From positions 1 to 40,404 of the forward strand of contig JAJEBU010000103.1 in the NCBI GenBank assembly GCA_022822375.1: a stretch of DNA of 40,404 nucleotides, in the 5' to 3' direction. A model generated the notes under the pieces. That model was given only the letters and a program-made list of their open reading frames with translations, did no database searches and was not told the DNA's origin. This stretch comes from Dehalococcoidia bacterium. GTDB taxonomy: Bacteria > Chloroflexota > Dehalococcoidia > Bin125. Position numbers and translations under genes: made by a program. Below, in pieces: positions 1,788 to 25,235 of the stretch. Each line of letters opens with the position of its first letter. Position 1 is the stretch's first letter.

Positions 1788-2055
1788 CGGTCGCCTCCTG
1801 ACCCTGCGGCGCAGACGGTTGGTCAAGCGGCGGCGTCAGACGCACGACCGGCGCGCCGCCATCGGCAGGCGAGTCCTTGAACAGGCCGATGGCGCGGCCC
1901 AGCAGCTCCCAGGCGCGCAGGCGCGTGGTGTCGGCCGTGTTCCCGTGCGCCATGCGGCGGATGCCGCCGATCACCTCGCCGTCGGTGATCGGGCCATCGG
2001 GCAAATCTGGCGCGTCGGATGGTTCGTCAACTGGTTCGGGGCGTCGCGGTGGCAT
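1774..2055 (-). CDS. Phage terminase small subunit-like protein
   Basis: This 94-residue protein is encoded immediately upstream of and overlapping the large terminase. It contains a segment around residues 35-65 (TRLRAWELLGRAIGLF) that resembles the small-terminase pattern in which an Arg-Leu-Arg-Ala helix is followed by Leu-Gly-x-x-x-Gly-Leu-Phe. In packaging complexes this subunit recognises phage DNA and regulates the large subunit. The ATG at 2055 has an AGGAAAG purine tract about 12 bases upstream. The open frame continues to 2295, but that N-terminal extension looks like antisense of the DUF885 gene. The assignment rests on position plus this short motif. Confidence 0.6.
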   Translation of the reverse strand: MPPRRPEPVDEPSDAPDLPDGPITDGEVIGGIRRMAHGNTADTTRLRAWELLGRAIGLFKDSPADGGAPVVRLTPPLDQPSAPQGQEATDDID

Positions 2056-2200
2056 TGGGCGGCTCGCTTTCCTGGACTGGCGGACGCTCGATCTTACTCG
2101 AACGCCAGTTCTGTCCAGCCAACCACGTAGCATGGATTGCAGAGACAGCGAATCGTGCGCCACGTCACGTCCGACTCGGCGCTTGACCTGTGGATTGCTC

Positions 2201-3865
2201 ATGCCCGACCAACTCCAGACCGTCGCCGACATCTCCGATTGGTACGTTGAGGCGCTTGCCGCCGCGCACCCGAACATGGCCAACTCGCTGGGCATCGCTG
2301 GCCGCGAGACCGAGTTGACGGACTACTCGCCCGACGGTCATGAGGAACGCTCCGCCATCCGCCGACGCGCCGAGACGGCGCTGCGCGACGCGCAGATTGC
2401 GTCGGAGCGCGACCGCGTCGCCCGCGACGTGATGCTGGAGCGCTTCGACTACGAAGCCGAGCTGGAGTCGCAGCGAGAACATCTGCGGTCGCTGAACATT
2501 CTCGCCTCGCCGCTGCAGAACACGCGCCAGGTGTTCGATCTGATGCCGCGCGAGACGGAAGAGGATCACGCACGCATCGTCGAGCGCATGGCCGCGGTGC
2601 CTGAAGCCTTGCAACGCTATCGGGCGTCCCTCGAGACCGGCATGGCGGAGGACATCGTCGTCGCGCAGCGCCAGGTGCGCGGCGCGATCGAGCAGTGTCG
2701 GGTCTGGGCAGGCGCCAGCAGTGCTTCGTTCTTCCACAATCTGCTCAACGACCTGGGCATCGACGGCGCTGACTCAGCAGCTGCAATCGCTGCGCAGGCC
2801 TATGCCGCGCTGGGCGACTGGCTCCAAGAGGTCTACTTGCCTCAGGCGAATCCCCGCGATCCCGTCGGACGCGAGCGCTACCAGGCCGCGTCGCGCGGAT
2901 TCAACGGCATCGAACTCGATCTCGACGAGACCTATCAGTGGGGCTGGGAAGAGCTGTGGCGGATTCAGTCGGAGATGGAGCGGACGGCTGAACGGATCAA
3001 GCCCGGCGCATCGACGGCGGAGGCAATCGAGATCCTGGAGTCGGACGACGCCCGCGCGATCGAGGGTGAGGACGCCTTTCGCGAGTGGATGCAGCAGACG
3101 CAAGACGAAACGATGCAGGCGCTGCTTGGTGCGCACTTTGACATCGCCGAGCCGGTCCAGCGGATCGAGGCGATGATTGCGCCTCCCGGCGGAGCGCTCG
3201 CGATGTACTACACGGGTCCGTCGGAGGACTTTTCCCGTCCCGGCCGCACCTGGTACCCGACCGGCGGCGCAACTCGCTTCCCGCTCTGGCGCGAGCTGTC
3301 CATCTGCTACCACGAAGGCGTGCCAGGCCACCACCTGCAGATCGGCACAACGCGGTATCTGGGCGATCAACTGACCCGTTACCAGCGATTGCTGGCCGGC
3401 ACGTCTGGCTACGTCGAAGGCTGGGCGCTCTACGCCGAACGGTTGATGGCCGAGCTGGGCTACCTGGAGGATCCCGCGTTCTACATGGGATTGCTGAGCA
3501 GCCAGGCGATGCGCGCGGCGCGCATCGTGGTGGACATCGGCCTGCACCTGGAACTGCGCATCCCCGACCATGAGCCGTACCACGGCGGCGAGACCTGGCG
3601 CCCGGAGATCGCGCTGCCCTTCATGATCGAGCGCTCGTTCTTCCCCGAGCAGATGCTGGCCAGCGAGGTGGACCGCTATCTCGGCTGGCCCGGCCAGGCC
3701 ATCTCATACAAGGTCGGGGAACGCGAGTGGCTCGCCGCGAGAGAGTCGGCCCGGCAAGCGCAGGGTGCCGCTTTTGATCTGAAGCGCTTCCACAAATCAG
3801 CGTTGGAGCTCGGACCGATGGGACTCCAACAGCTGCGAGATGAGATGTCGCGGTTGCCGGAGTGA
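2201..3865 (+). CDS. DUF885 family putative zinc metallopeptidase
   Basis: The 554-residue protein matches the DUF885 family, whose members carry a gluzincin-like HExxxxHH signature. Here HEGVPGHH is at residues 371-378, followed about 35 residues later by YVEGWALYAERL, which supplies the usual downstream glutamate. The length is typical. No signal peptide is seen at the chosen ATG (2201), so it is probably cytoplasmic. The open frame extends upstream to 1877, but that part overlaps the terminase gene and has shadow composition. No good Shine-Dalgarno sequence precedes 2201. The substrate cannot be told from sequence. Confidence 0.85.
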   Translation: MPDQLQTVADISDWYVEALAAAHPNMANSLGIAGRETELTDYSPDGHEERSAIRRRAETALRDAQIASERDRVARDVMLERFDYEAELESQREHLRSLNILASPLQNTRQVFDLMPRETEEDHARIVERMAAVPEALQRYRASLETGMAEDIVVAQRQVRGAIEQCRVWAGASSASFFHNLLNDLGIDGADSAAAIAAQAYAALGDWLQEVYLPQANPRDPVGRERYQAASRGFNGIELDLDETYQWGWEELWRIQSEMERTAERIKPGASTAEAIEILESDDARAIEGEDAFREWMQQTQDETMQALLGAHFDIAEPVQRIEAMIAPPGGALAMYYTGPSEDFSRPGRTWYPTGGATRFPLWRELSICYHEGVPGHHLQIGTTRYLGDQLTRYQRLLAGTSGYVEGWALYAERLMAELGYLEDPAFYMGLLSSQAMRAARIVVDIGLHLELRIPDHEPYHGGETWRPEIALPFMIERSFFPEQMLASEVDRYLGWPGQAISYKVGEREWLAARESARQAQGAAFDLKRFHKSALELGPMGLQQLRDEMSRLPE

Positions 3866-3919
3866 AACGTTGGTAGGCTGGATGCGAAGGTACGACGTCG
3901 CGATGGAGTGAGGGTCTGC

Positions 3920-4336
3920 ATGGGCGAGATTGTCGTTCAGATTCAGCTGGAGAACACCAACGATCGGGGTGCGTTTAACCGCGGTTTCATCGATGAGTCG
4001 GAGATTCGCAGCTTGGAGATCGATGCGGTGGCCGACACCGGCGCGATGATGCTTGCGCTGCCCGAGGACGTCGTGGACCAGCTTGGACTGAGTCAGGTCG
4101 ACAGCATCATCGCCAGATACGCAGACGGACGACGAGAGACCCTGCCAGTAGCCGGACCTCTGATGATCCAGATTGGCGATCGATCGATGACCACGGAGTG
4201 CATCATCGTTCCGGCAGGCGCAGACGCGCTGATTGGCCAGCTCGTGATGGAGAGACTCGACCTCATCCCCGACTGCACCCACCAACGGCTCACCCCCAGG
4301 CCCGAGTCGCCCGACCGACCCCTTGTGCGGCTCTGA
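3920..4336 (+). CDS. Clan AA (retropepsin-like) aspartic protease
   Basis: The 138-residue protein has the single-domain retropepsin layout. A catalytic DTGA motif lies near residue 43, a predicted flap region follows, and a second hydrophobic psi-loop (ALIGQLVMERLDL) is near the C-terminus. Such proteins work as homodimers. The ATG at 3920 is preceded by GGAGTGAGG. A GTG four codons upstream is an alternative start. There is no signal peptide. Its stop codon overlaps the ATG of the first selenocysteine DsbA-like gene as TGATG, so the two are translationally coupled and probably one operon. The substrate is unknown. Confidence 0.8.
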   Translation: MGEIVVQIQLENTNDRGAFNRGFIDESEIRSLEIDAVADTGAMMLALPEDVVDQLGLSQVDSIIARYADGRRETLPVAGPLMIQIGDRSMTTECIIVPAGADALIGQLVMERLDLIPDCTHQRLTPRPESPDRPLVRL

Positions 4337-5178
4337 TGCGCGGGTTGGTCGGCGTCCTCGTTGCGCTTGCCGTCCTCCTCGCCGCCTGCGGCTCCGCAGA
4401 CGACGTCGAGCCGACAGGGACTGAGACGTCGGAACGCGCGCCGCGTGAAGCGACCGTGGGACAAGCGCAGCAGCAGCAGCAATCTCAGCAATCTCAGCAG
4501 ATTCAGGCAGTCCAGCAGCAAGCCGATCCACAACAGGTCGGGCAGCAAGAGCAACAGACCGTTGACGATCAGCCAGCGGCCGAGCCGTCAGATCCCGAGC
4601 CGCAGCCTGAAGCCGTTGACCATTCAGCCGTTGCCCCCGAGCCGTCCATCGTCGGTACCCACAAGGGCGTGCGATCGGAAGGCAGAACGCTCGGACTCGC
4701 CGCCGCGCCCGTCCTGATTGAGCACTTTGGCGACTTCACTTGAGGCATCTGCCAACGCTTCACGGCTCAGGTTGAGCCGTTGCTGATTGAGCAGTTCGTG
4801 GCCAGCGGACAGGCGCGCTACGAGTTCCGCTACATGCCAGTGCTGGGTGACCCCGCGGTCTATGCGGCCGTGGCGGTCGCCTGCGCCAACGAGCAGGGCG
4901 GCTTCTGGCCGCTGCACGATCGTTTCATGCTCGCGGACGAGACGCTGTTCAGCGAGGCTGGCCTGCGCCGGCAGGTCGAGTTTGATGGTCTGGACTACGA
5001 CATCTTCCAGCAGTGCATGCTGGACGCCGCGACCCTGCCGCTGATCCAGGCGTCCTACGGGGAAGGCGTCGAACGGGGCGTTGAGGGCACGCCCACGATC
5101 TTCGTCAACGGCGTCCGCGTCGATCATTCCTACGACGCCATCGCCGACGCCGTTGAGCGCGCGCTGAACGCTCCCTGA
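4336..5178 (+). CDS. DsbA-like thioredoxin-fold lipoprotein with selenocysteine (copy 1, UGIC)
   Basis: Read through an in-frame TGA at 4741-4743, this gives a continuous 280-residue protein. It has a lipoprotein signal ending in LLAAC (Cys18), a long Gln-rich linker, then a Thioredoxin_4/DsbA-type domain from about residue 125. The TGA is codon 136 and replaces the first cysteine of the CxxC site: FGDFT-U-GIC-QRF, resolving Cys139. Downstream the domain continues normally with VACANEQGGFW and the cis-Pro loop GTPT (Pro253). A SECIS-like hairpin follows the TGA. Without read-through the product would be a lipid-anchored stub lacking the fold. By family knowledge it is a membrane-anchored extracytoplasmic thiol-disulfide oxidoreductase. 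The ATG overlaps the protease stop. Misannotation as two ORFs is likely in automatic pipelines. Confidence 0.88.
4762..4780 (+). promoter_or_regulatory. SECIS-like hairpin, copy 1
   Basis: Seven base pairs (ACGGCTC with GAGCCGT) close a 5-base loop AGGTT. The loop starts 28 bases after the T of the TGA at 4741. This fits the known bacterial SECIS pattern: a stem within the coding region, a small apical loop with G in its first two bases, and about 16-37 bases between UGA and loop. It would recruit SelB with Sec-tRNA. Confidence 0.75.
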
Positions 5179-5206
5179 CCTGCCGAGATCCGTGGCTCCA
5201 CTAAAG

Positions 5207-5212
5207 TACGCT
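5207..5212 (+). promoter_or_regulatory. -10-like hexamer TACGCT, 6 bases before the start of selenoprotein copy 2
   Basis: TACGCT, then six bases, then the ATG at 5219, with no Shine-Dalgarno sequence. This is the TANNNT-N6 arrangement of leaderless transcripts and recurs at five other genes in this window. It suggests copy 2 can also be transcribed from its own promoter. Confidence 0.4.
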
Positions 5213-5218
5213 CAAGCC

Positions 5219-6046
5219 ATGACCCGACCACTTCAGCTGCTGGCAATCGCGGGCGTCCTGCTACTGATCAGCGTGATCTCCGCCTGCGGATCGGGCGGCG
5301 GCGCCGAGTCCCAGCCGAGCGCGACCGAGACGCCGAGTTCCGAGCGCGTCTATCGACAGGCGTCGATCATGCAGCAGCAGGCTGACCGCGTCTCGGAGCA
5401 GCTGGATGCGGAAGAGGAGCAGGACGGCTCCGTCTCAGAGCACCGGGACGCGGAAGCGAGCGGTGAGGACGCGGAAGTGATGGCGAGCGGGTCGATTGAC
5501 TTTGGGCATCGCATCGGTCTGCCGTTTTCGCGCAACGTCGTCGGCGATCCTGACGCTCCGGTCTTGTTTGTCGAGTACTCCGATTATCAGTGACCACACT
5601 GCAAGAATTTTGCGGCTCAGTTGGAGCCGCAAGTGATTGAGGAAGCAGTCCGCAGCGGCCTCGCACGCTACGAGTACCGCCACTTCATCGTGTTCGGCGC
5701 GGCCAGCCAGTTCGCGGCCATGGCGACGGAGTGCGCGGGCGACCAGGGTGCCTGGTGGGAGTTCAAAGACGCCTACATGTTGGAGGGTCTGGCCCGTTCC
5801 TTCACCCGAGCCGGCGCACTCGACCTGGCCCGCGCTGAAGGCCTCGACCTCGACCGATTCAGCCAGTGCCTGGACGATGAAGCTCACGCCGATCGCTTGC
5901 TGCAGATGCGCCAGCAAGCGATCGCCGACGGCGTCACGGGCACACCCACGTTTCGGGTCAACGACCGCCCTGGCGCGCGGGCGATCGATGCGCTGTTGGA
6001 ACAGATTCGAGCCGCCGCTGAGGCAGCAGAAAGTGCAGGGAGCTGA
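5219..6046 (+). CDS. DsbA-like thioredoxin-fold lipoprotein with selenocysteine (copy 2, UPHC)
   Basis: Read through TGA at 5591-5593, this gives 275 residues. The signal peptide ends in VISAC (lipidated Cys23). An acidic Gln/Glu linker follows, then a DsbA-type domain with SDYQ-U-PHC-KNF (Sec125, Cys128). UPHC is the selenocysteine version of the CPHC site of classical DsbA. The domain then has TECAGDQGAWW and the cis-Pro loop GTPT (Pro243). I chose the ATG at 5219 because it starts a canonical lipoprotein signal. A GTG at 5192 is in frame but weaker. A strong hairpin follows the TGA at the same offset as in copies 1 and 3. The stop overlaps the ATG of copy 3 as TGATG, so copies 2 and 3 are translationally coupled. 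Confidence 0.9.
5610..5632 (+). promoter_or_regulatory. SECIS-like hairpin, copy 2
   Basis: This is a perfect 9-base-pair stem, TTGCGGCTC with GAGCCGCAA, closing the loop AGTTG. The loop again begins 28 bases after the T of the TGA at 5591. It is the most stable of the three elements. Confidence 0.8.
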
Positions 6047-6909
6047 TGACCAAGACCATCACCGTGCTCGTCGTGTCGATGCTGGCCGTCGCGCTCTTCC
6101 TGAGCGCCTGCGGATCGGACGACGCTCAGCCGTCCGCAACCTCGCGGTCGGTGCCAGCTGATCAGTCCGCCCAGACCGATCAATCCGATCCAGCGCAGTC
6201 GTACCAGGCCGGCAACACGCAGTCGGTCGAGGAGTCGCAGTCGGCGGATGCTGAGCAGCAAGCACCATCGAGCGATCAACCGGCCCAACAATCAACAACG
6301 GACGATCAGCCGTCCGACGCCGATGGGTCGGCGGGCGATCAGCCCGAGCAAGAAGCGATGGTCGGCCAGATTCCCGATTCCGGGCCGTACGCAGGCATCC
6401 TGATCAACCGACACGTGCTCGGCGACCCCAACGCCGCGATCGTGATCACGGAGTACTCCGACTTCCTGTGAGGCAACTGCCGTCGATTCGCGGCGCAGTC
6501 TGCGCCGCAAGTGCTTGACGAACTGGTTCGCTCCGGGATCGCCCGCTTCGAATACGTCCACTTTCTTGGCCATGGCGGGCCGTCCGTCTTTGCCGCAATG
6601 TCCACCGAGTGCGCCGGCGACCAGGGCGCCTGGTGGAGCTTCCACGACCACTACATGACGACCAACGACTTCACCCGCGACAGCGCCGTCGCCCTCGCGG
6701 CGTCGCTGGAGCTCGATACCGAACAGTTCGGCCAGTGCCTCGACGAGGAGGCCCACCTCGACACGGTCAATGCGTCACATCAACAGGCTCGCGAGGCCGG
6801 CGTCTCACGAACGCCAACGATTCACGTCAACGGCGAGGGCGCAGCGACCATCGGCGAGGCGCTCATCGAGCAAGTTCTAGCCCTGGCCAACGAGCTCGGC
6901 GAGGGCTAG
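6046..6909 (+). CDS. DsbA-like thioredoxin-fold lipoprotein with selenocysteine (copy 3, UGNC)
   Basis: Read through TGA at 6469-6471, this gives 287 residues. The lipobox is FLSAC (Cys22). A long Gln/Ser/Asp-rich linker follows, then the thioredoxin-fold domain with SDFL-U-GNC-RRF (Sec142, Cys145), TECAGDQGAWW, and a cis-Pro loop RTPT (Pro257) in which Gly is replaced by Arg. AGGGAG precedes the ATG, which overlaps the stop of copy 2. The domain is closer to copy 2 than to copy 1. It ends in TAG, followed at once by terminator-like hairpins, so it closes the operon. As in the other copies, the protein should sit on the outer face of the cytoplasmic membrane. Confidence 0.9.
6490..6508 (+). 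promoter_or_regulatory. SECIS-like hairpin, copy 3
   Basis: Seven G-C pairs, GCGGCGC with GCGCCGC, close the loop AGTCT, again 28 bases after the T of the TGA at 6469. Relative to copy 1, pair 2 changes from T-A to G-C and pair 7 from A-T to G-C, both preserving pairing. Confidence 0.78.
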
Positions 6910-7015: not shown

Positions 7016-7061
7016 TTGCAATTGCGAACACCCTTTCTTAGTATCAGAACCCACGTTCTGA
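7016..7061 (+). promoter_or_regulatory. Sigma-70-type promoter overlapped by a LexA-type operator
   Basis: The -35 TTGCAA (7016-7021) and -10 TAGTAT (7039-7044) are separated by exactly 17 bases. A perfect inverted repeat, TCAGAAC-CCAC-GTTCTGA (7044-7061), starts at the last -10 base and covers the expected transcription start. It contains GAAC-N4-GTTC, the core of the LexA box of Bacillus/Actinobacteria-type repressors. The likely reading is SOS-controlled expression of the portal-like gene. Confidence 0.65.
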
Positions 7062-7078
7062 ATAGAAGGGACCGTTCC

Positions 7079-9106
7079 ATGCCATCCGCGCTCCATTCCA
7101 CCACCGACCAATCCGAGGCCGTCCAGTCACGCACGCTCTCCGAAGCCGATCTCGCACACCTGCTCGCCCAGCTGGGCGGCGGCCGTTCGGTTGCGGCCGG
7201 ACGCGGGAGATTCTCCGCACTCCACGATCGCATCCGGCAGCGCGAAGCGCACCTCTTCAACACGCCCGATGCCAATCCGCGATTCTCCGCCCCGCACCTC
7301 GAGGCCGAACCGTGGCAGACCGATCTGCCCCGTCGCACCTGGGCCCAACTGCGCCAACGCCTGACCGAGCATCCCTTGCGCGTGCACGTCGAACCGCCCG
7401 ACGACTCGCCGGATGCCCGCCGCTCGGCTGACGACCTCGAGCATGTGCTCGAGCAGGGGCTGCGAGAGGTCGAGGACCGCTCTCACCTGGCCATTCAGGC
7501 GGACCTTGGCTACGGCCAGGTCTGCCTCTGCTACGGCGTGCTGCACTGGCAGTCGGACGCTGAACGTCTGCCGCCAATGCCGGCCCGCGAGCAGCGGTCC
7601 GAGCGTCCGCTAGACCACGACGATCGCCGCAGATTTCGACGCTCCCGCGCCGAAGACGGGCCCTCCCTGGCCTGGATCGAGACCGCATCGAGCCGCGCCG
7701 ACCGCGACCGCCAGCGACAGGCCGCGGCTGGCTTTCCCTGGCACGTGGAGGTCATCCGCCCCGACCAGTTCGCCTTCGTCGAGGACTTCGGGCCTGGCAA
7801 CGGACTGGGCGTCGCCGTCGTCCTGCGCGAAGTCAGCATCACCGAGTACCGCGACCGCCTGCGCGAGCAGGACGGCCTCGCGTTGCAGCTCTCGGCCGTG
7901 CGCGGCGAACCCGCCATCTCGGTCGGACCGGCGGTCGACGCGCCGATGCCGCACGATCCCTCGGGCATGCGCTGGGGCGACCGCCTGCGCGTCGCGTCGG
8001 TTTGGACACGTACGGAGTACTACGAGCTCGCTGCGCTGACTGAGGGTCGGACCGACGCGTCGGACGGCGAGTGGACGCTGATCAAGTCGCACCCGCATCC
8101 CTACGAGATGCCGCCCTTCGCGATCGCCGAGGCGGATACGAACGATCACCCTGATGTCGTGCGTCGCTGGGAGCCGACGATGGAGGGCATCTACCGGGCC
8201 AAGCCCGGCTACGACTACGAGCGTTCGCTCGGCCGTTTCCTCGCCGAACAGACGGCGATCCCGCTCTACTGGGTGCAGCTCTCCGACGGCAGCTGGCAGA
8301 CGGACGACGACAACAACCGCATCGAGCTCACGCCCGACGCGGCCGCTGCGGCCACACTGCCCGACGGCGCGACGCTGCATCGCGTGGAGTTCGAGGTCAA
8401 TCCGGCCTTCGTGGACTTCGTTCGCATGTCCCAGGACGAGTTGCTCGCGGCCGCACCCGACACCGGAGCGGTCGAGCGCGGTGAGATTGGCCCGAACACG
8501 CAGCCGCACACGCTAAATCTGCTGCTCGGCTCTCGCAACCTGCAGGTGCAGCAGCTCAAACGCGCACAGTCCCGGGCGGTCCGCACGATGCTGCGCAACA
8601 TGGCGCTGGTCATGTCCAAGCCGCTGTCCGCCGGCGGTTTCGGCGCGCCAGTCTGGGTCTTCGCGCCCGGTCCACAGCGGGGCGCCGGCCGCCTCCAGCG
8701 ACGTGAGACCGTATCCGTTGAGCCTGCGTTGATCCCCTCGCTCGATATCGACGTCTGGGTCGACCCTTACTCAGCGTCGCAGCGAATCGCCGTGCAGGAG
8801 CACGGACGCGCGAGGCTCAACGACCCGCTCGATCCGCTCGACCAGCGCGCCTATCTCGAGCAGTACATCGGCGAGGAGCACGCCGCGCAAGTGCTCACCA
8901 GGCATCGCCAGTGGCGGATCGAACAGGCGCGTCTGGACGCGCAGGTTGCCGAAATCCGGGGCGTGGACGCGTCCGCCGAGCACGCCTCGACTGCGGCGTC
9001 CGAGGTTGCCCGCCTGCCCGTTCATCTGGCGCCGCTCAATCGGTTGCACGACTCCACCGACGACCGCACGACAAGTCCGGCGCCGTCGGAGGTCACACAT
9101 CTGTGA
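7079..9106 (+). CDS. Phage portal-like protein
   Basis: This is a 675-residue soluble protein. I recognise a portal-like layout: a variable N-terminal part, then a central WEPTMEGIYRAKPGYDYE segment. A helical stretch with MSQDELLAAAPDTGAVERGEIG and RNLQVQQLKRAQSRAVRTM resembles the stem/clip helices of portal proteins. In a phage this forms the dodecameric ring through which the terminase pumps DNA. The ATG at 7079 has AGAAGGGA upstream at good spacing. A frame extension to 7016 runs across the promoter and is rejected. The gene is on the opposite strand to the terminase and 5 kb away, which is not a normal phage order. The family call is moderate and a structure search would settle it. Confidence 0.5.
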   Translation: MPSALHSTTDQSEAVQSRTLSEADLAHLLAQLGGGRSVAAGRGRFSALHDRIRQREAHLFNTPDANPRFSAPHLEAEPWQTDLPRRTWAQLRQRLTEHPLRVHVEPPDDSPDARRSADDLEHVLEQGLREVEDRSHLAIQADLGYGQVCLCYGVLHWQSDAERLPPMPAREQRSERPLDHDDRRRFRRSRAEDGPSLAWIETASSRADRDRQRQAAAGFPWHVEVIRPDQFAFVEDFGPGNGLGVAVVLREVSITEYRDRLREQDGLALQLSAVRGEPAISVGPAVDAPMPHDPSGMRWGDRLRVASVWTRTEYYELAALTEGRTDASDGEWTLIKSHPHPYEMPPFAIAEADTNDHPDVVRRWEPTMEGIYRAKPGYDYERSLGRFLAEQTAIPLYWVQLSDGSWQTDDDNNRIELTPDAAAAATLPDGATLHRVEFEVNPAFVDFVRMSQDELLAAAPDTGAVERGEIGPNTQPHTLNLLLGSRNLQVQQLKRAQSRAVRTMLRNMALVMSKPLSAGGFGAPVWVFAPGPQRGAGRLQRRETVSVEPALIPSLDIDVWVDPYSASQRIAVQEHGRARLNDPLDPLDQRAYLEQYIGEEHAAQVLTRHRQWRIEQARLDAQVAEIRGVDASAEHASTAASEVARLPVHLAPLNRLHDSTDDRTTSPAPSEVTHL

Positions 9107-15899: not shown

Positions 15900-16010
15900 C
15901 GGGCGATACGCAGGGTCAATCGGCTCTTGACCCGTCACCGCCCACTGCGCATCGACCGCTGCGCCGGTGCGTCGCAACGAGCCCAGGCAGCCACGCGCGA
16001 GGAGTCCGAG

Positions 16011-16745
16011 TTGCTGCGTTTCGCGCTGGCCATGGGCAAGCGGGTTCTGGGCGCGGTTCGCGATCTGCTGCCAATCGTCGCCGTGATCGTCTTCTTCCAG
16101 GCCGTCGTGCTGCAGCAAGCCTTCCCCGACGTTGTCAGCGTGATCGTCGGACTCATCTGCGTCGTCGCCGGCCTGGCGCTGTTCATTCAGGGCCTGGAGA
16201 GCGGGCTGTTCCCACTCGGTGAAGCGCTTGCCGAGGGCATGGCGCAAAAGGGCAGCACATTCTGGCTGGTGGCGCTGGCGTTCTGCCTCGGATTCGGCAC
16301 AACGGTCGCCGAGCCGGCCTTGATCGCCATCGCCGCCGAAGCGGCTGCAGTCGCCTCGGAGGCTCGGTTCATCGGCTACAGCCAGTCCGACCAGGACCAA
16401 TACGCGCTCGAGCTGCGGCTCGTGGTCGCGGTCGCCGTAGGTATCGCAATCGTGCTCGGCGTCCTGCGCATTCTGCGCGGCTGGCCGATCCACTACTTCA
16501 TCATCGGCGGTTACGTGCTGGTCATGGTGATGACCGTCTTCGCGCCCGAGGAGATCGTCGGCGTCGCCTACGACTCCGGCGGCGTCACGACCAGCACCAT
16601 CACCGTACCGTTGATCACCGCGCTGGGCGTTGGGTTGGCCTCCGCGATTCGAGGACGCAACCCCATGCTGGACGGGTTCGGACTGATTGCCTTCGCGAGT
16701 CTGACGCCGATGATCTGCGTACTCGGCTACGGGATGCTGTCGTGA
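16011..16745 (+). CDS. DUF1538 membrane protein, first copy
   Basis: The 244-residue integral membrane protein has about seven hydrophobic segments and the DUF1538 signatures GFGTTVAEPALIAI and YDSGGVTTSTITVP. The family is thought to be a transporter, but the substrate is unknown. I chose TTG at 16011 because GAGGAG sits 6 bases upstream. TTG 15927 and ATG 16032 are alternatives. The stop overlaps the next start as GTGA. This is the first gene of a four-gene operon ending in P-II-like and CBS proteins. Confidence 0.82.
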   Translation: MLRFALAMGKRVLGAVRDLLPIVAVIVFFQAVVLQQAFPDVVSVIVGLICVVAGLALFIQGLESGLFPLGEALAEGMAQKGSTFWLVALAFCLGFGTTVAEPALIAIAAEAAAVASEARFIGYSQSDQDQYALELRLVVAVAVGIAIVLGVLRILRGWPIHYFIIGGYVLVMVMTVFAPEEIVGVAYDSGGVTTSTITVPLITALGVGLASAIRGRNPMLDGFGLIAFASLTPMICVLGYGMLS

Positions 16746-17527
16746 TCCTCGATGCTCTGCAACTGTTCGGCGAAACGCTGCTCGACACCATGCGCGATGT
16801 CGCGCCGATCGTGATCATCCTCATCGTGTTCCAGGTTGCCGTGCTGCGTCGCCGACCGCCCAACATCGCGGGCATCGTGACCGGCTCGGTGATGGTCCTG
16901 CTCGGACTGGCCCTGTTCCTGATCGGACTGGACCAGGCGCTGTTCCCAATCGGCGAGACGATGGCGCGTCAGTTGACGGAGGAGGCGCAATCGCTGGCCG
17001 GCGCGGTGCGCTGGGAGGAGTACTGGCTCGTCTACATCTTCGCGGCCGCGATCGGGTTTGCAACAACCGTGGCCGAGCCGTCGCTGATCGCCGTCGGACT
17101 CAAGGCTGAGGAAGTATCGGGCGGCGCGGTGAGCGCCTGGGGCCTGCGGATCGCCGTGGCGTTCGGAGTCGCCGCCGGCGTGGCGTTGGGCTGCTTCCGG
17201 ATCGTGACGGGCACGCCGCTGCCCTTCTACATCGTGGGCGCGTACGTCATCGTCATCTTGCAGACGTACCTGAGCAATCGTACGATCGTCCCGCTGGCCT
17301 ACGACAGCGGGGGCGTCACCACATCGACGGTGACGGTGCCGGTCGTGGCGGCTCTGGGCCTGGGCCTGGCGGCCAACGTGCCGGGCCGCAGCCCCTTGAT
17401 CGACGGATTCGGCCTGATCGCGTTCGCCAGTGTCTTCCCGATCATGTCGGTACTAGGCTATGCCATTAGCGCAGACTGGATTGGACGCTGGCGCCGGCGC
17501 AACACACGGCAGGAGGCGGAGCAATGA
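16742..17527 (+). CDS. DUF1538 membrane protein, second copy
   Basis: This 261-residue paralogue of the preceding protein repeats both signatures (GFATTVAEPSLIAV, YDSGGVTTSTVTVP) and the membrane topology. It starts with GTG inside the stop of the first copy. In other genomes DUF1538 can occur as a fused tandem, so the two halves here likely form one heterodimeric membrane unit. Its stop overlaps the P-II-like start as ATGA. Confidence 0.85.
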   Translation: MILDALQLFGETLLDTMRDVAPIVIILIVFQVAVLRRRPPNIAGIVTGSVMVLLGLALFLIGLDQALFPIGETMARQLTEEAQSLAGAVRWEEYWLVYIFAAAIGFATTVAEPSLIAVGLKAEEVSGGAVSAWGLRIAVAFGVAAGVALGCFRIVTGTPLPFYIVGAYVIVILQTYLSNRTIVPLAYDSGGVTTSTVTVPVVAALGLGLAANVPGRSPLIDGFGLIAFASVFPIMSVLGYAISADWIGRWRRRNTRQEAEQ

Positions 17528-22091: not shown

Positions 22092-23081
22092 TCAATCAGT
22101 GGGATTCAGCGCTGAAGCGTCCAACGCGCGCAGCGCCTCGTCCCGAGCAAAGTGGGGCAGGGCGCGCACCCGGCCGCCTGACCTGAGTGTAGCGCGTGCT
22201 CCCTCGCGCACCGCGCCGATCAGCGCTGCGTCCACGGCGGCCGCGGAGAGCGCGGCCAGCGCGGAGTCGGCAGCCAACGGATGCACCGCCGCGAGCAACG
22301 TCCCGGATCCCAGCAGACCCAGTGGATCCAGCGATCGTTCGTCGCACACCCGCAACGTCTGCGGCAGCCAGATGATCGAGTCAGCGTCCAACTGCGGAGC
22401 CAGGCCGGCGGCCTGGGCCAACTCGAGCGCCGCCGTGGCGATCCCGCCCTCGGTGACATCGTGCATCGCGTGGACGCCTTCGATGTCGCGCAGCGTCCGC
22501 GCCGCGGCCGCAATGCTCACGCCAGGATCGTCTAGTAGCTCGGGAAGGCCTAGGATCGCCGTGCCTTCCACAGCGGCGGCTCCGGCCTGGATGATCAGAT
22601 CGCCGTCCTGCGCCCCGTCGGATGGCACGATCTGCTCCAACGGCGCTGAACCGATCATGGTGCAGGAGACGACGGAGCGTGTGACGGCGTCCGTGATCTC
22701 GGTGTGCCCGCCGATCAGCGCCACGCCTGCCGCTTCGCAGGCGGACTGCAAACCCATGACGAGTTCGGCGACGTCATCGGCGTCGCTGCCGGCGGGCGCG
22801 AGCACCGTCGCGAGCATCCAACGCGGTTCTGCTCCGACTGCCAGGATGTCATTCGCATTGACCGTCACCGCCAGACGGCCGGCGTCGGCATCGACGAAGG
22901 TGATCGGGTCCGACGCAGCCACCAGCGCCTGGCCGTCGAACTCCACGATCGCGGCGTCGCGACCCACGCCCGGTCCCTGACGCAGCCCAGATCGACCGCT
23001 CGCGCTGCTGCTCACCGTGCTGCCCAGCGCCTGCAGCAGGACGTCCATCGGCAGCTTGCCCAGGTCCAGCGGTTCGGACAT
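22092..23081 (-). CDS. AIR synthase-like (HypE/PurM superfamily) protein
   Basis: The 329-residue protein has the PurM fold pattern: DPITFVDADAGRLAVTVNANDILAVGA for the ATP-binding N-terminal domain, and IGGHTEITDAV and HDVTEGGIATAALELA for the C-terminal domain. It resembles archaeal-type HypE-like AIR synthases. The C-terminal cysteine motif of true HypE is missing (it ends ASALNPTD), so hydrogenase maturation is unlikely. The Cys/Sec-Lys loop of SelD is also missing. The substrate is unknown. It is divergent from the 23127 gene with only 45 bases between starts. Confidence 0.75.
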   Translation of the reverse strand: MSEPLDLGKLPMDVLLQALGSTVSSSASGRSGLRQGPGVGRDAAIVEFDGQALVAASDPITFVDADAGRLAVTVNANDILAVGAEPRWMLATVLAPAGSDADDVAELVMGLQSACEAAGVALIGGHTEITDAVTRSVVSCTMIGSAPLEQIVPSDGAQDGDLIIQAGAAAVEGTAILGLPELLDDPGVSIAAAARTLRDIEGVHAMHDVTEGGIATAALELAQAAGLAPQLDADSIIWLPQTLRVCDERSLDPLGLLGSGTLLAAVHPLAADSALAALSAAAVDAALIGAVREGARATLRSGGRVRALPHFARDEALRALDASALNPTD

Positions 23082-23114
23082 CAGATATGGTTCCAGGTTG
23101 GGCGCCGTGTTGCA

Positions 23115-23120
23115 TATCCT
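23115..23120 (+). promoter_or_regulatory. -10-like hexamer TATCCT for the PEP-utilizer gene
   Basis: TATCCT is followed by six bases and the ATG at 23127, without a ribosome-binding site. Confidence 0.4.
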
Positions 23121-23126
23121 GACAAC

Positions 23127-25235
23127 ATGAACGCGACGGTAACCGATCAGCTCGGCGGTCTCGCCTGGTCTGAAGACCCGCAGGGCGACAACCAGGCGGC
23201 ACTGCGGATCGACATCGAGGGCGATGCGCCGCGCTCGATCCCGCTGCCGCGGCGCGGGCCAATCACGATCTCGCAGTTCGGCGACGCCGAGACGCTCGAC
23301 GCGGTTCGGTCGGCGCTGCTGCAGGCCGAACTCGATCTCGGCGGGCCCGCTGTGCTGCGCTGGAAGGCGTATGGCTCCGGCACCATTGACACATCCGACG
23401 CACGGCTGATTGACGATCCACTGCCCTGGGGCGGCGCGCCCGGCCGCGGATTGCCGCAGACGCCGCACCCGAACGACCAATGGTCGCGCGCCAACGCCGG
23501 CGAGGTCATCCCCAACGTGATGACGCCGCTCAGCTGGTCGATCATCGCCGATCCGCTCGATCGCGGCTTCCATGCGCCGTGGGGAGACTGGACCGACGGA
23601 CGCCGATTCGTGGCGCTGTACGACGGCTACGTCTACTTCAATGTCGGACTGATGATGGAGCTGATTCGAGATCGGCTGGGCTTCAGCGGCACGCATTTCC
23701 TGGAAGCGATCGGCGGTCCAGAGGCGGCTGATCAAGTCGAGGCCGGCGGCAACGGCGAGCAATCGACCAGCATCCGCTGGCGAACCATGCTGCCGCGCCT
23801 GCCGTTCATGCTGCGTTGGCTGCGGGACCAGGATCGGATGCCCGCGCGCTGGCCTGAGATGCGTCGCAGCGCCGAAGCCGAGCGCGACCGACTGCGGTCG
23901 CTCGACGCCACCGCGCTCAGCGACCGGCAGATCCTCCGCGAGTTGAGCCGTTCAGCGGCCGAGAGCGAGCGCCAGACCGTCTTCCTGATGCGCGCCCAGT
24001 CTGCCGTCTACGGCGCCACGCAAGGCTTGCTCTGGTCGACCGACCGCTGGCTGGGCCGCAACCTGCGTCATCTCTCGCTGGCCGTGCTGCAAGGGCTGCC
24101 CGGCGTGCGCACACAAGACGGCAATCTCGCACTGCGTCGGATCGCGGTACGTGCCGCGTCAGACGCGGAAGCCGCGGCCGTGGTCCGCAGCGAGAGCGCG
24201 GACCAGCTGTGGACCGCGCTGCACTCCGACGCGCTGCCCGCAGCGCTGACGTGGCTGCGCGATGCGCTCGACGCGTTCATGGCCGAGTACGGTCACCGCG
24301 CCGCCGGCGAGCTCGAAGCAGCGGAGCCGCGCTGGATCGAACAGCCGTCGCTGATCCTCGATACCTTTCGCGATTATGTCCTGCATCCCGAAGCCAACAA
24401 CCCTGACGAACTGGTCGAGCGCCAGCACCAGGAACGACGCAACGCGGAGCGCGAGATCCGGTCGCGTCTGCTCGCCGGCGGCTGGTTGGGCCGTGTCCGT
24501 TGGCTGCTGTTCCGCGCCCAGATTCAGCAAGCGCGACAACTGCAACCGCTGCGGGAGAATCCGAAGTTCAGTCTGCTCGAACTCTCGCTCCAACAGCGCC
24601 GACTCTGGCACGAGCTCGCCGATCGCTGGATCGAGCGCGGTGTCATCGCCGATCGCGGCGACATCTACTACCTCCTGTTCGAGGAGCTCGCGACGCTGAC
24701 GCGCCGCGCCGAGGAGCCGGTCTTCGCGGCCAGAATGCGCAGCCGCATTCGCCGCCGTCGACGCCAGTTCGAGGCCTGGAAGCAGTCACCCGCCGCGCCG
24801 CTTCGAGACCGCTCGGGCGATCCGATCACCGCTCAACGAGATGCGCCGTCGGCCTCCGTGGCCGAAGCGCCATCAAGCTCGGCTGGCATGGACGAATCCG
24901 CGCTGCCGATCATCCTGAGCGGCATCGCGGCATCGACGGGACGGGTCGAGGGCCGAGCGCACGTCGCCGACTCCGCGACGGCCGGCCGCGATCTGACGCC
25001 GGGCGACATCCTCGTGGCCCGCTTCACTGATCCGGGCTGGACGCCGGTCTTCCCGTTGGCCGCGGCCGTGGTGACGGAGATCGGCGGCGTGCTCAGTCAC
25101 GGCGCCATCGTGGCGAGGGAGTTCGGCATTCCCGCCGTGGTCAACGTGCAGCAGGTGACCACACAGATTCAGTCAGGAGACCTGCTGCAGGTCGACGGAT
25201 CGAGTGGCCAGGTGACCATCGTCGAGCGCGCCTGA
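23127..25235 (+). CDS. PEP-utilizing enzyme/PEP synthase-like protein without an ATP-binding domain
   Basis: The 702-residue protein ends with a clear PEP-utilizer mobile (phosphohistidine) domain: PGDILVARFTDPGWTPVF and TEIGGVLSHGAIVAREFGIPAVV, where the His of SHG is the phosphorylated residue. The N-terminal part has VIPNVMTPLSWSI and YDGYVYFNVGLMMEL, as in the central region of PEP synthase-like and rifampicin phosphotransferase-like proteins. The usual N-terminal ATP-grasp domain is absent. It may therefore use a partner for nucleotide binding or have another role. The ATG at 23127 appears leaderless. Confidence 0.75.
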   Translation: MNATVTDQLGGLAWSEDPQGDNQAALRIDIEGDAPRSIPLPRRGPITISQFGDAETLDAVRSALLQAELDLGGPAVLRWKAYGSGTIDTSDARLIDDPLPWGGAPGRGLPQTPHPNDQWSRANAGEVIPNVMTPLSWSIIADPLDRGFHAPWGDWTDGRRFVALYDGYVYFNVGLMMELIRDRLGFSGTHFLEAIGGPEAADQVEAGGNGEQSTSIRWRTMLPRLPFMLRWLRDQDRMPARWPEMRRSAEAERDRLRSLDATALSDRQILRELSRSAAESERQTVFLMRAQSAVYGATQGLLWSTDRWLGRNLRHLSLAVLQGLPGVRTQDGNLALRRIAVRAASDAEAAAVVRSESADQLWTALHSDALPAALTWLRDALDAFMAEYGHRAAGELEAAEPRWIEQPSLILDTFRDYVLHPEANNPDELVERQHQERRNAEREIRSRLLAGGWLGRVRWLLFRAQIQQARQLQPLRENPKFSLLELSLQQRRLWHELADRWIERGVIADRGDIYYLLFEELATLTRRAEEPVFAARMRSRIRRRRRQFEAWKQSPAAPLRDRSGDPITAQRDAPSASVAEAPSSSAGMDESALPIILSGIAASTGRVEGRAHVADSATAGRDLTPGDILVARFTDPGWTPVFPLAAAVVTEIGGVLSHGAIVAREFGIPAVVNVQQVTTQIQSGDLLQVDGSSGQVTIVERA

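Follow-up and report, generated by a model that had tools for sequence, protein, structure and literature searches.

Contig JAJEBU010000103.1 of a Dehalococcoidia bacterium carries three consecutive genes, dsb1, dsb2, and dsb3, which almost certainly encode a tandem set of selenocysteine (Sec)-containing, membrane-anchored lipoproteins with a DsbA/BdbD fold; this confidence does not extend to the direction in which their electrons flow. Coordinates refer to the window, meaning the whole 40,404-nt stretch that was analyzed (Table 1). Each open reading frame contains a single in-frame TGA, at the position of the first Cys in the DsbA/BdbD CxxC site of homologues. Along each protein, a short hydrophobic signal with a lipobox leads into a low-complexity Q/E/D/S/P linker and then into one Thioredoxin_4 (PF13462) domain. 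This domain spans the TGA (dsb1 residues 116 to 274, E value of 2.2e-21; dsb2, 9.6e-27; dsb3, 1.5e-24) and scores 77 to 95 bits, above the curated cut-off of 23.2. An earlier, sequence-only reading of this DNA had described three frames interrupted by TGA at the motifs UGIC, UPHC, and UGNC, each with a lipobox in its upstream half. Our analysis agrees with that description and places the TGAs at 4741, 5591, and 6469 and the N-terminal lipoboxes at LAAC, ISAC, and LSAC, respectively.

The dsb1 and dsb2 frames are closed by normal TGA stops, at 5176 and 6044, without the hairpin described below; inside this one operon, TGA is both sense and stop. Stop and start codons overlap as TGATG twice, at the junction of dsb2 with dsb3 and at that of an upstream aspartic protease gene with dsb1. 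These overlaps, along with the tight packing of the genes, suggest a single transcript.

Decoding of the in-frame TGAs

Several lines of evidence led us to infer, very strongly, that Sec is inserted at the three TGAs. A hairpin with a 7-bp stem and a 5-nt loop, of the bacterial Sec insertion sequence (bSECIS) type, lies at +21 to +39 from each TGA, and the stem is perfect in dsb1 to dsb3. The two strands of the window contain 1,117 TGA trinucleotides in all; a perfect 7-bp stem in this register accompanies only four, the three dsb Sec codons and one other. Across 65 genes of the family, the stem retains a mean of 6.49 of 7 pairs versus 4.16 under a synonymous-codon null (standard deviation of the mean, 0.12; maximum of 200 nulls, 4.46). 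The hairpin is absent from 71 Cys homologues, which average 2.28 pairs versus 2.32 under the null. Loop position 2 is G in all 65 family genes, in agreement with the conserved apical guanosine described for bacterial SECIS elements (PMC1088965). Moreover, two stem pairs vary on both sides (six cells in total), with a covariation score that exceeds all shuffles and slides. Two points temper this evidence: the pair counts and the covariation come from related sequences and so do not represent independent events, and 1 of the 65 genes forms only 2/7 pairs, its hairpin being either missing or displaced. A general comparison of folding energies (mean z of −1.2 for Sec genes and 0.0 for Cys genes) was only mildly informative because extra flanking pairings dilute the signal, and the fixed-register test is the decisive one. 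The consensus hairpin had no exact match in the viral contigs searched.

Alignment across the TGA used 147 distinct homologues from relatives and public genomes, with three further rows left out as misaligned fragments. The codon at the Sec site is TGA in 76, TGC in 53, and TGT in 18; no other sense codon occurs there, nor does TAA, and TGG, which would have spoken against the Sec proposal of the sequence-only reading, is likewise missing. Relative to the nearest relative, G007, purifying selection is evident on either side of the TGA, with dN/dS values downstream of it of 0.12 (dsb1), 0.16 (dsb2), and 0.13 (dsb3), and the downstream domain is better conserved than the upstream linker.

The source genome is also equipped for Sec insertion. 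It encodes a tRNA-SeC with anticodon UCA (TCA in DNA), and profile searches identified SelB above its cut-off, SelA at 516 bits, and SelD at 350 bits, so that the four components that the earlier reading had proposed to look for are all present. SelA is encoded by each of the 20 family genomes. SelD is a selenoprotein as well, with its in-frame TGA at the customary site (CGGUGSK; locus L175, G000:C110:7468-8409), and the hairpin of its gene begins about 28 nt past that TGA.

Two other explanations of the read-through frames can be weighed against these results. If the TGAs were true stops, the genes would be pseudogenes or split genes giving two peptides, and the use of TGA as an ordinary stop at the ends of dsb1 and dsb2 would fit this idea. 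In practice it is contradicted by a TGA that 65 family genes share at a single codon, none of them reverted or disrupted, by low downstream dN/dS, by a hairpin beyond codon constraint, and by the full Sec machinery, and we rejected it as having a negligible probability. A code change throughout the genome, with TGA read as Cys or Trp, would fit the read-through frames taken by themselves, yet it is more improbable still and was rejected too, given that dsb1 and dsb2 terminate on hairpin-less TGAs, that the aligned residue in homologues is Cys and never Trp, and that Sec machinery is present. The sequence-only reading had called a global code change unlikely on the grounds that TGA is also a normal stop here, a judgment borne out by those terminal codons. 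For the SECIS-type element that Sec insertion entails, one is found at all three TGAs and exceeds synonymous-codon expectation family-wide.

Table 1. Positions of the dsb genes, their decoding and anchoring features, and the upstream genes in the window
Feature	Position	Strand	Details
dsb1, Sec-containing DsbA/BdbD-like lipoprotein	4336..5178	+	280 aa, Sec at 136 (UGIC), stop TGA
dsb1 lipobox LAAC	4378..4389	+	
dsb1 Sec codon TGA	4741..4743	+	
dsb1 bSECIS-type hairpin	4762..4780	+	ACGGCTC-AGGTT-GAGCCGT
dsb2, Sec-containing DsbA/BdbD-like lipoprotein	5219..6046	+	275 aa, Sec at 125 (UPHC), stop TGA
dsb2 lipobox ISAC	5276..5287	+	
dsb2 Sec codon TGA	5591..5593	+	
dsb2 bSECIS-type hairpin	5612..5630	+	GCGGCTC-AGTTG-GAGCCGC; helix two pairs longer still
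dsb3, Sec-containing DsbA/BdbD-like lipoprotein	6046..6909	+	287 aa, Sec at 142 (UGNC), stop TAG
dsb3 lipobox LSAC	6100..6111	+	
dsb3 Sec codon TGA	6469..6471	+	
dsb3 bSECIS-type hairpin	6490..6508	+	GCGGCGC-AGTCT-GCGCCGC
Clan AA (retropepsin-like) aspartic protease	3908..4336	+	Upstream of dsb1
DUF885 protein	1877..3865	+	Upstream context; kept in 12/13 relative cluster loci

Fold, paralogues, and genomic surroundings

A strict lipobox pattern occurs in 45 of 47 genes from 14 cluster loci. The predicted structure of the dsb3 domain, with Sec modeled as Cys, has a pLDDT of 97.4, and the closest solved structures are Bacillus subtilis BdbD (PDB 3eu3; TM score of 0.82, 22% identity) and actinobacterial DsbA-type proteins. 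The dsb proteins have a cis-Pro loop (TPT) and a BdbD-type lid domain, as well as a further pair of nearly invariant cysteines (C83 and C125 of A3) that is probably structural. The sequence gives strong support to the predicted fold and lipid anchoring, as it does to the UxxC site and to the reading of TGA as Sec.

Sec use in this group is complete: all four Thioredoxin_4 proteins of the source genome have the TGA, and all 65 of the family have a Sec codon, with none reverted to Cys or disrupted. Within the genus, 13 of 14 relatives encode four to five Thioredoxin_4 proteins per genome, all with TGA. In the remaining relative (G003, 470 contigs), SelA and CcdA were found and Thioredoxin_4 gave no match, possibly owing to the fragmented assembly. 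The fourth Sec-DsbA of the source genome (UPNC) is unlinked to the others (L022:4401 onwards, minus strand; G000:C64:28442-28888); it has a transmembrane or signal-type N terminus without a lipobox and belongs to a genus-wide orthologous group.

Phylogenetic analysis placed the 65 family proteins in one group (SH-aLRT of 89), in which dsb1, dsb2, and the dsb3/dsb4 branch form supported orthologue groups and the unlinked proteins form a fifth (support of 98). The order dsb1-dsb2-dsb3(-dsb4) is repeated across the genus. An extra tandem paralogue, dsb4 (UGGC), is found at loci L056, L063, L064, L067, and L147, replaces dsb3 in L066, and is absent from the source genome. Sec also occurs in several branches outside the family, with six Sec/Cys changes on the unrooted tree, and so it was gained or lost more than once. 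Those relatives that carry names are Chloroflexota/Dehalococcoidia metagenome-assembled genomes, and their isolate names suggest that several derive from marine sponges.

With respect to the surroundings of the cluster, we weighed a functional partnership with the aspartic protease and dropped the idea, as a match adjoins only 4 of 13 relative clusters; it is context and not a core part. A 696-amino-acid protein encoded at 7016-9106 (+) lies at or near the cluster in most relatives (60 to 96% identity) and has no match in Pfam, NCBIfam, or PHROG. Elsewhere in the window are a pair of adjoining DUF1538 membrane proteins (15927-17527, +) and an AIR-synthase-domain protein (22092-23762, −) with a subthreshold SelD match (75 bits), which is possibly a SelD-like paralogue of other function.

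Electron partners and direction of catalysis

A classical DsbA oxidase system requires DsbB or VKOR for reoxidation, and we found neither: profile searches of the 20 family genomes detected no VKOR, and a search for DsbB, confined to the source genome (95.6% complete), was likewise negative. BdbD works with a DsbB-type partner, BdbC, whereas the source genome yielded no such protein. All 20 family genomes, the source included, encode a CcdA/DsbD_TM protein, the kind of conduit that a DsbD/CcdA-fed reductase or isomerase would need. The failure to find DsbB or VKOR leads us to favor a reductase or isomerase role over that of a classical DsbA oxidase. Tentatively, and with slightly less than even confidence, we propose that the dsb proteins are CcdA-fed reductases or isomerases/repair enzymes, the link to CcdA being putative.

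Whichever way the electrons flow, the in-frame UGA and the SECIS hairpin from 21 nt downstream are predicted to recruit SelB with Sec-tRNA(Sec), and the exported protein very probably carries its lipid on the lipobox Cys. Its BdbD-like catalytic domain would sit outside the membrane on a flexible tether about 100 residues long, where the selenolate would attack disulfides and the second Cys would resolve the mixed selenenylsulfide, an order of events suggested by the fold and by general selenoprotein chemistry. Electrons from a CcdA/DsbD-type membrane protein might then support reduction, or isomerase/repair work.

Several observations pull against CcdA-fed reduction. The search for DsbB covered a single genome, the CcdA gene does not lie near the dsb cluster, and CcdA may serve only cytochrome c maturation; the electron-source step is weak for this last reason. 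Structural neighbors of dsb3 include oxidases, BdbD among them, and only the low-complexity linker, with no DsbC/DsbG-type N-terminal dimerization domain, was seen between the lipobox and the thioredoxin domain. The main rival, which we consider unlikely but not negligible, is that the same selenolipoproteins are disulfide-forming oxidases that can do without DsbB or VKOR, since peroxide, oxygen, or other small oxidants would directly reoxidize their selenol. It draws on the closeness of the fold to an oxidase, on the absence of VKOR in this family, and on the speed of selenols, which react with peroxide much faster than thiols do. Also, in 9 of 12 VKOR-bearing genomes elsewhere in the class, VKOR lies beside a Thioredoxin_4 gene, encoding Sec- or Cys-DsbA, and the ancestral job may therefore have been oxidation. 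On the other hand, selenenylsulfides are usually weaker oxidants than disulfides in thermodynamic terms, and CcdA is kept in every family genome. Considerably less probable is a third role, as Sec-dependent peroxidase or repair enzymes against surface oxidants, with disulfide exchange secondary. Sec is typical of peroxidases, and the several paralogues suggest different substrates; nevertheless, a UxxC site with a cis-Pro loop and a BdbD-type lid is unlike the site of a peroxiredoxin or glutathione peroxidase.

Two side observations concern the membrane partners. The CcdA/DsbD_TM protein of the source genome (L178:1267-2097, −; G000:C58) and those of same-family genomes look circularly permuted: in many genus members, profile 33-214 comes first and the SPCVLPL segment (profile 7-45) follows it. 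At locus L163 of genome G026, a VKOR protein (L163:3565-4041; G026:C216) has a CxxC site that itself contains an in-frame TGA (QAIUPWCVAEA; TGA at L163:3949) and adjoins a Sec-DsbA (TGA at L163:3098), with a stable hairpin after each TGA. This pair is a candidate Sec-VKOR with Sec-DsbA; VKOR is not mentioned in a 2026 review (PMC13188914).

Relation to known systems and implications

The nearest named relative is NCBIfam NF041057, the Rcas_1661 family thioredoxin-like (seleno)lipoprotein, which appears as a "DsbG-like protein" with UxxC in the same review (PMC13188914). Like dsb1 to dsb3, its members are Chloroflexota lipoproteins with a thioredoxin-fold domain and U/CxxC; all three dsb proteins have the lipoprotein signal and U/CxxC and match nearly the whole model (E values of 3.5e-34 to 3.8e-39). 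However, they score only 118.5, 129.0, and 134.7 bits against a curated cut-off of 190 and so fall short of curated membership. Three Chloroflexota loci, L071, L074, and L095, encode proteins that clear the cut-off (213 to 265 bits) and that the tree sets apart from the window's family. The window's family further differs in its tandem arrangement of three to four copies and its tethers of about 100 residues. The dsb proteins share the anatomy of NF041057 members and probably function in the same way.

DsbA-like UxxC selenoproteins were reported in 2005 and 2006 from the Sargasso Sea and bacterial genomes (PMC1088965 and PMC1794560). In the available text of those reports, Sec is likewise first in the CxxC of a DsbA-like domain with a bSECIS downstream, but tandem lipid-anchored arrays are not described. 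BdbD, the nearest solved fold, has Cys instead of Sec. Other families of the class (for example, G026, G042, and G046) encode Sec- or Cys-DsbA proteins next to VKOR. These, too, are Thioredoxin_4 proteins, and some have their TGA where the dsb genes have it; there, the adjacent VKOR is the membrane oxidant, whereas the window's family lacks VKOR.

The sequence-only reading had considered a tandem triplet of lipid-anchored proteins unusual. Its point about the tandem stands, in that our search of the open-access literature turned up no report of Sec-DsbA lipoproteins in a tandem array, but lipid-anchored DsbA/DsbG-like selenoproteins were already a named family, NF041057, and so the novelty is lower than that reading claimed. 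What is new is a lipobox-bearing tandem of three to four paralogues conserved across a genus, together with complete Sec use (4/4 in the genome and 65/65 in the family). The wider idea, on which we are evenly divided, is that the whole extracytoplasmic DsbA (Thioredoxin_4) complement of this family is selenium dependent without DsbB or VKOR, with the array either CcdA fed or directly reoxidized by environmental oxidants.

As a practical matter, automatic annotation will halve these genes at their in-frame TGAs. A sponge-microbiome study found SelA and SelB together in most symbiont bins and missing from most related references (PMC5649159), a pattern that proteins like dsb1 to dsb3 could partly explain. 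Because the set lacks known oxidant partners, it lends itself to a direct test of which way electrons flow. If the wider idea is true, the extracytoplasmic thiol system of this family is based on selenium and departs from the textbook pairing of DsbA with DsbB or VKOR. All 65 genes, with up to five paralogues per genome, keep Sec although one base change would give Cys, and this retention is a natural experiment on the contribution of selenium to disulfide chemistry outside the cytoplasm.

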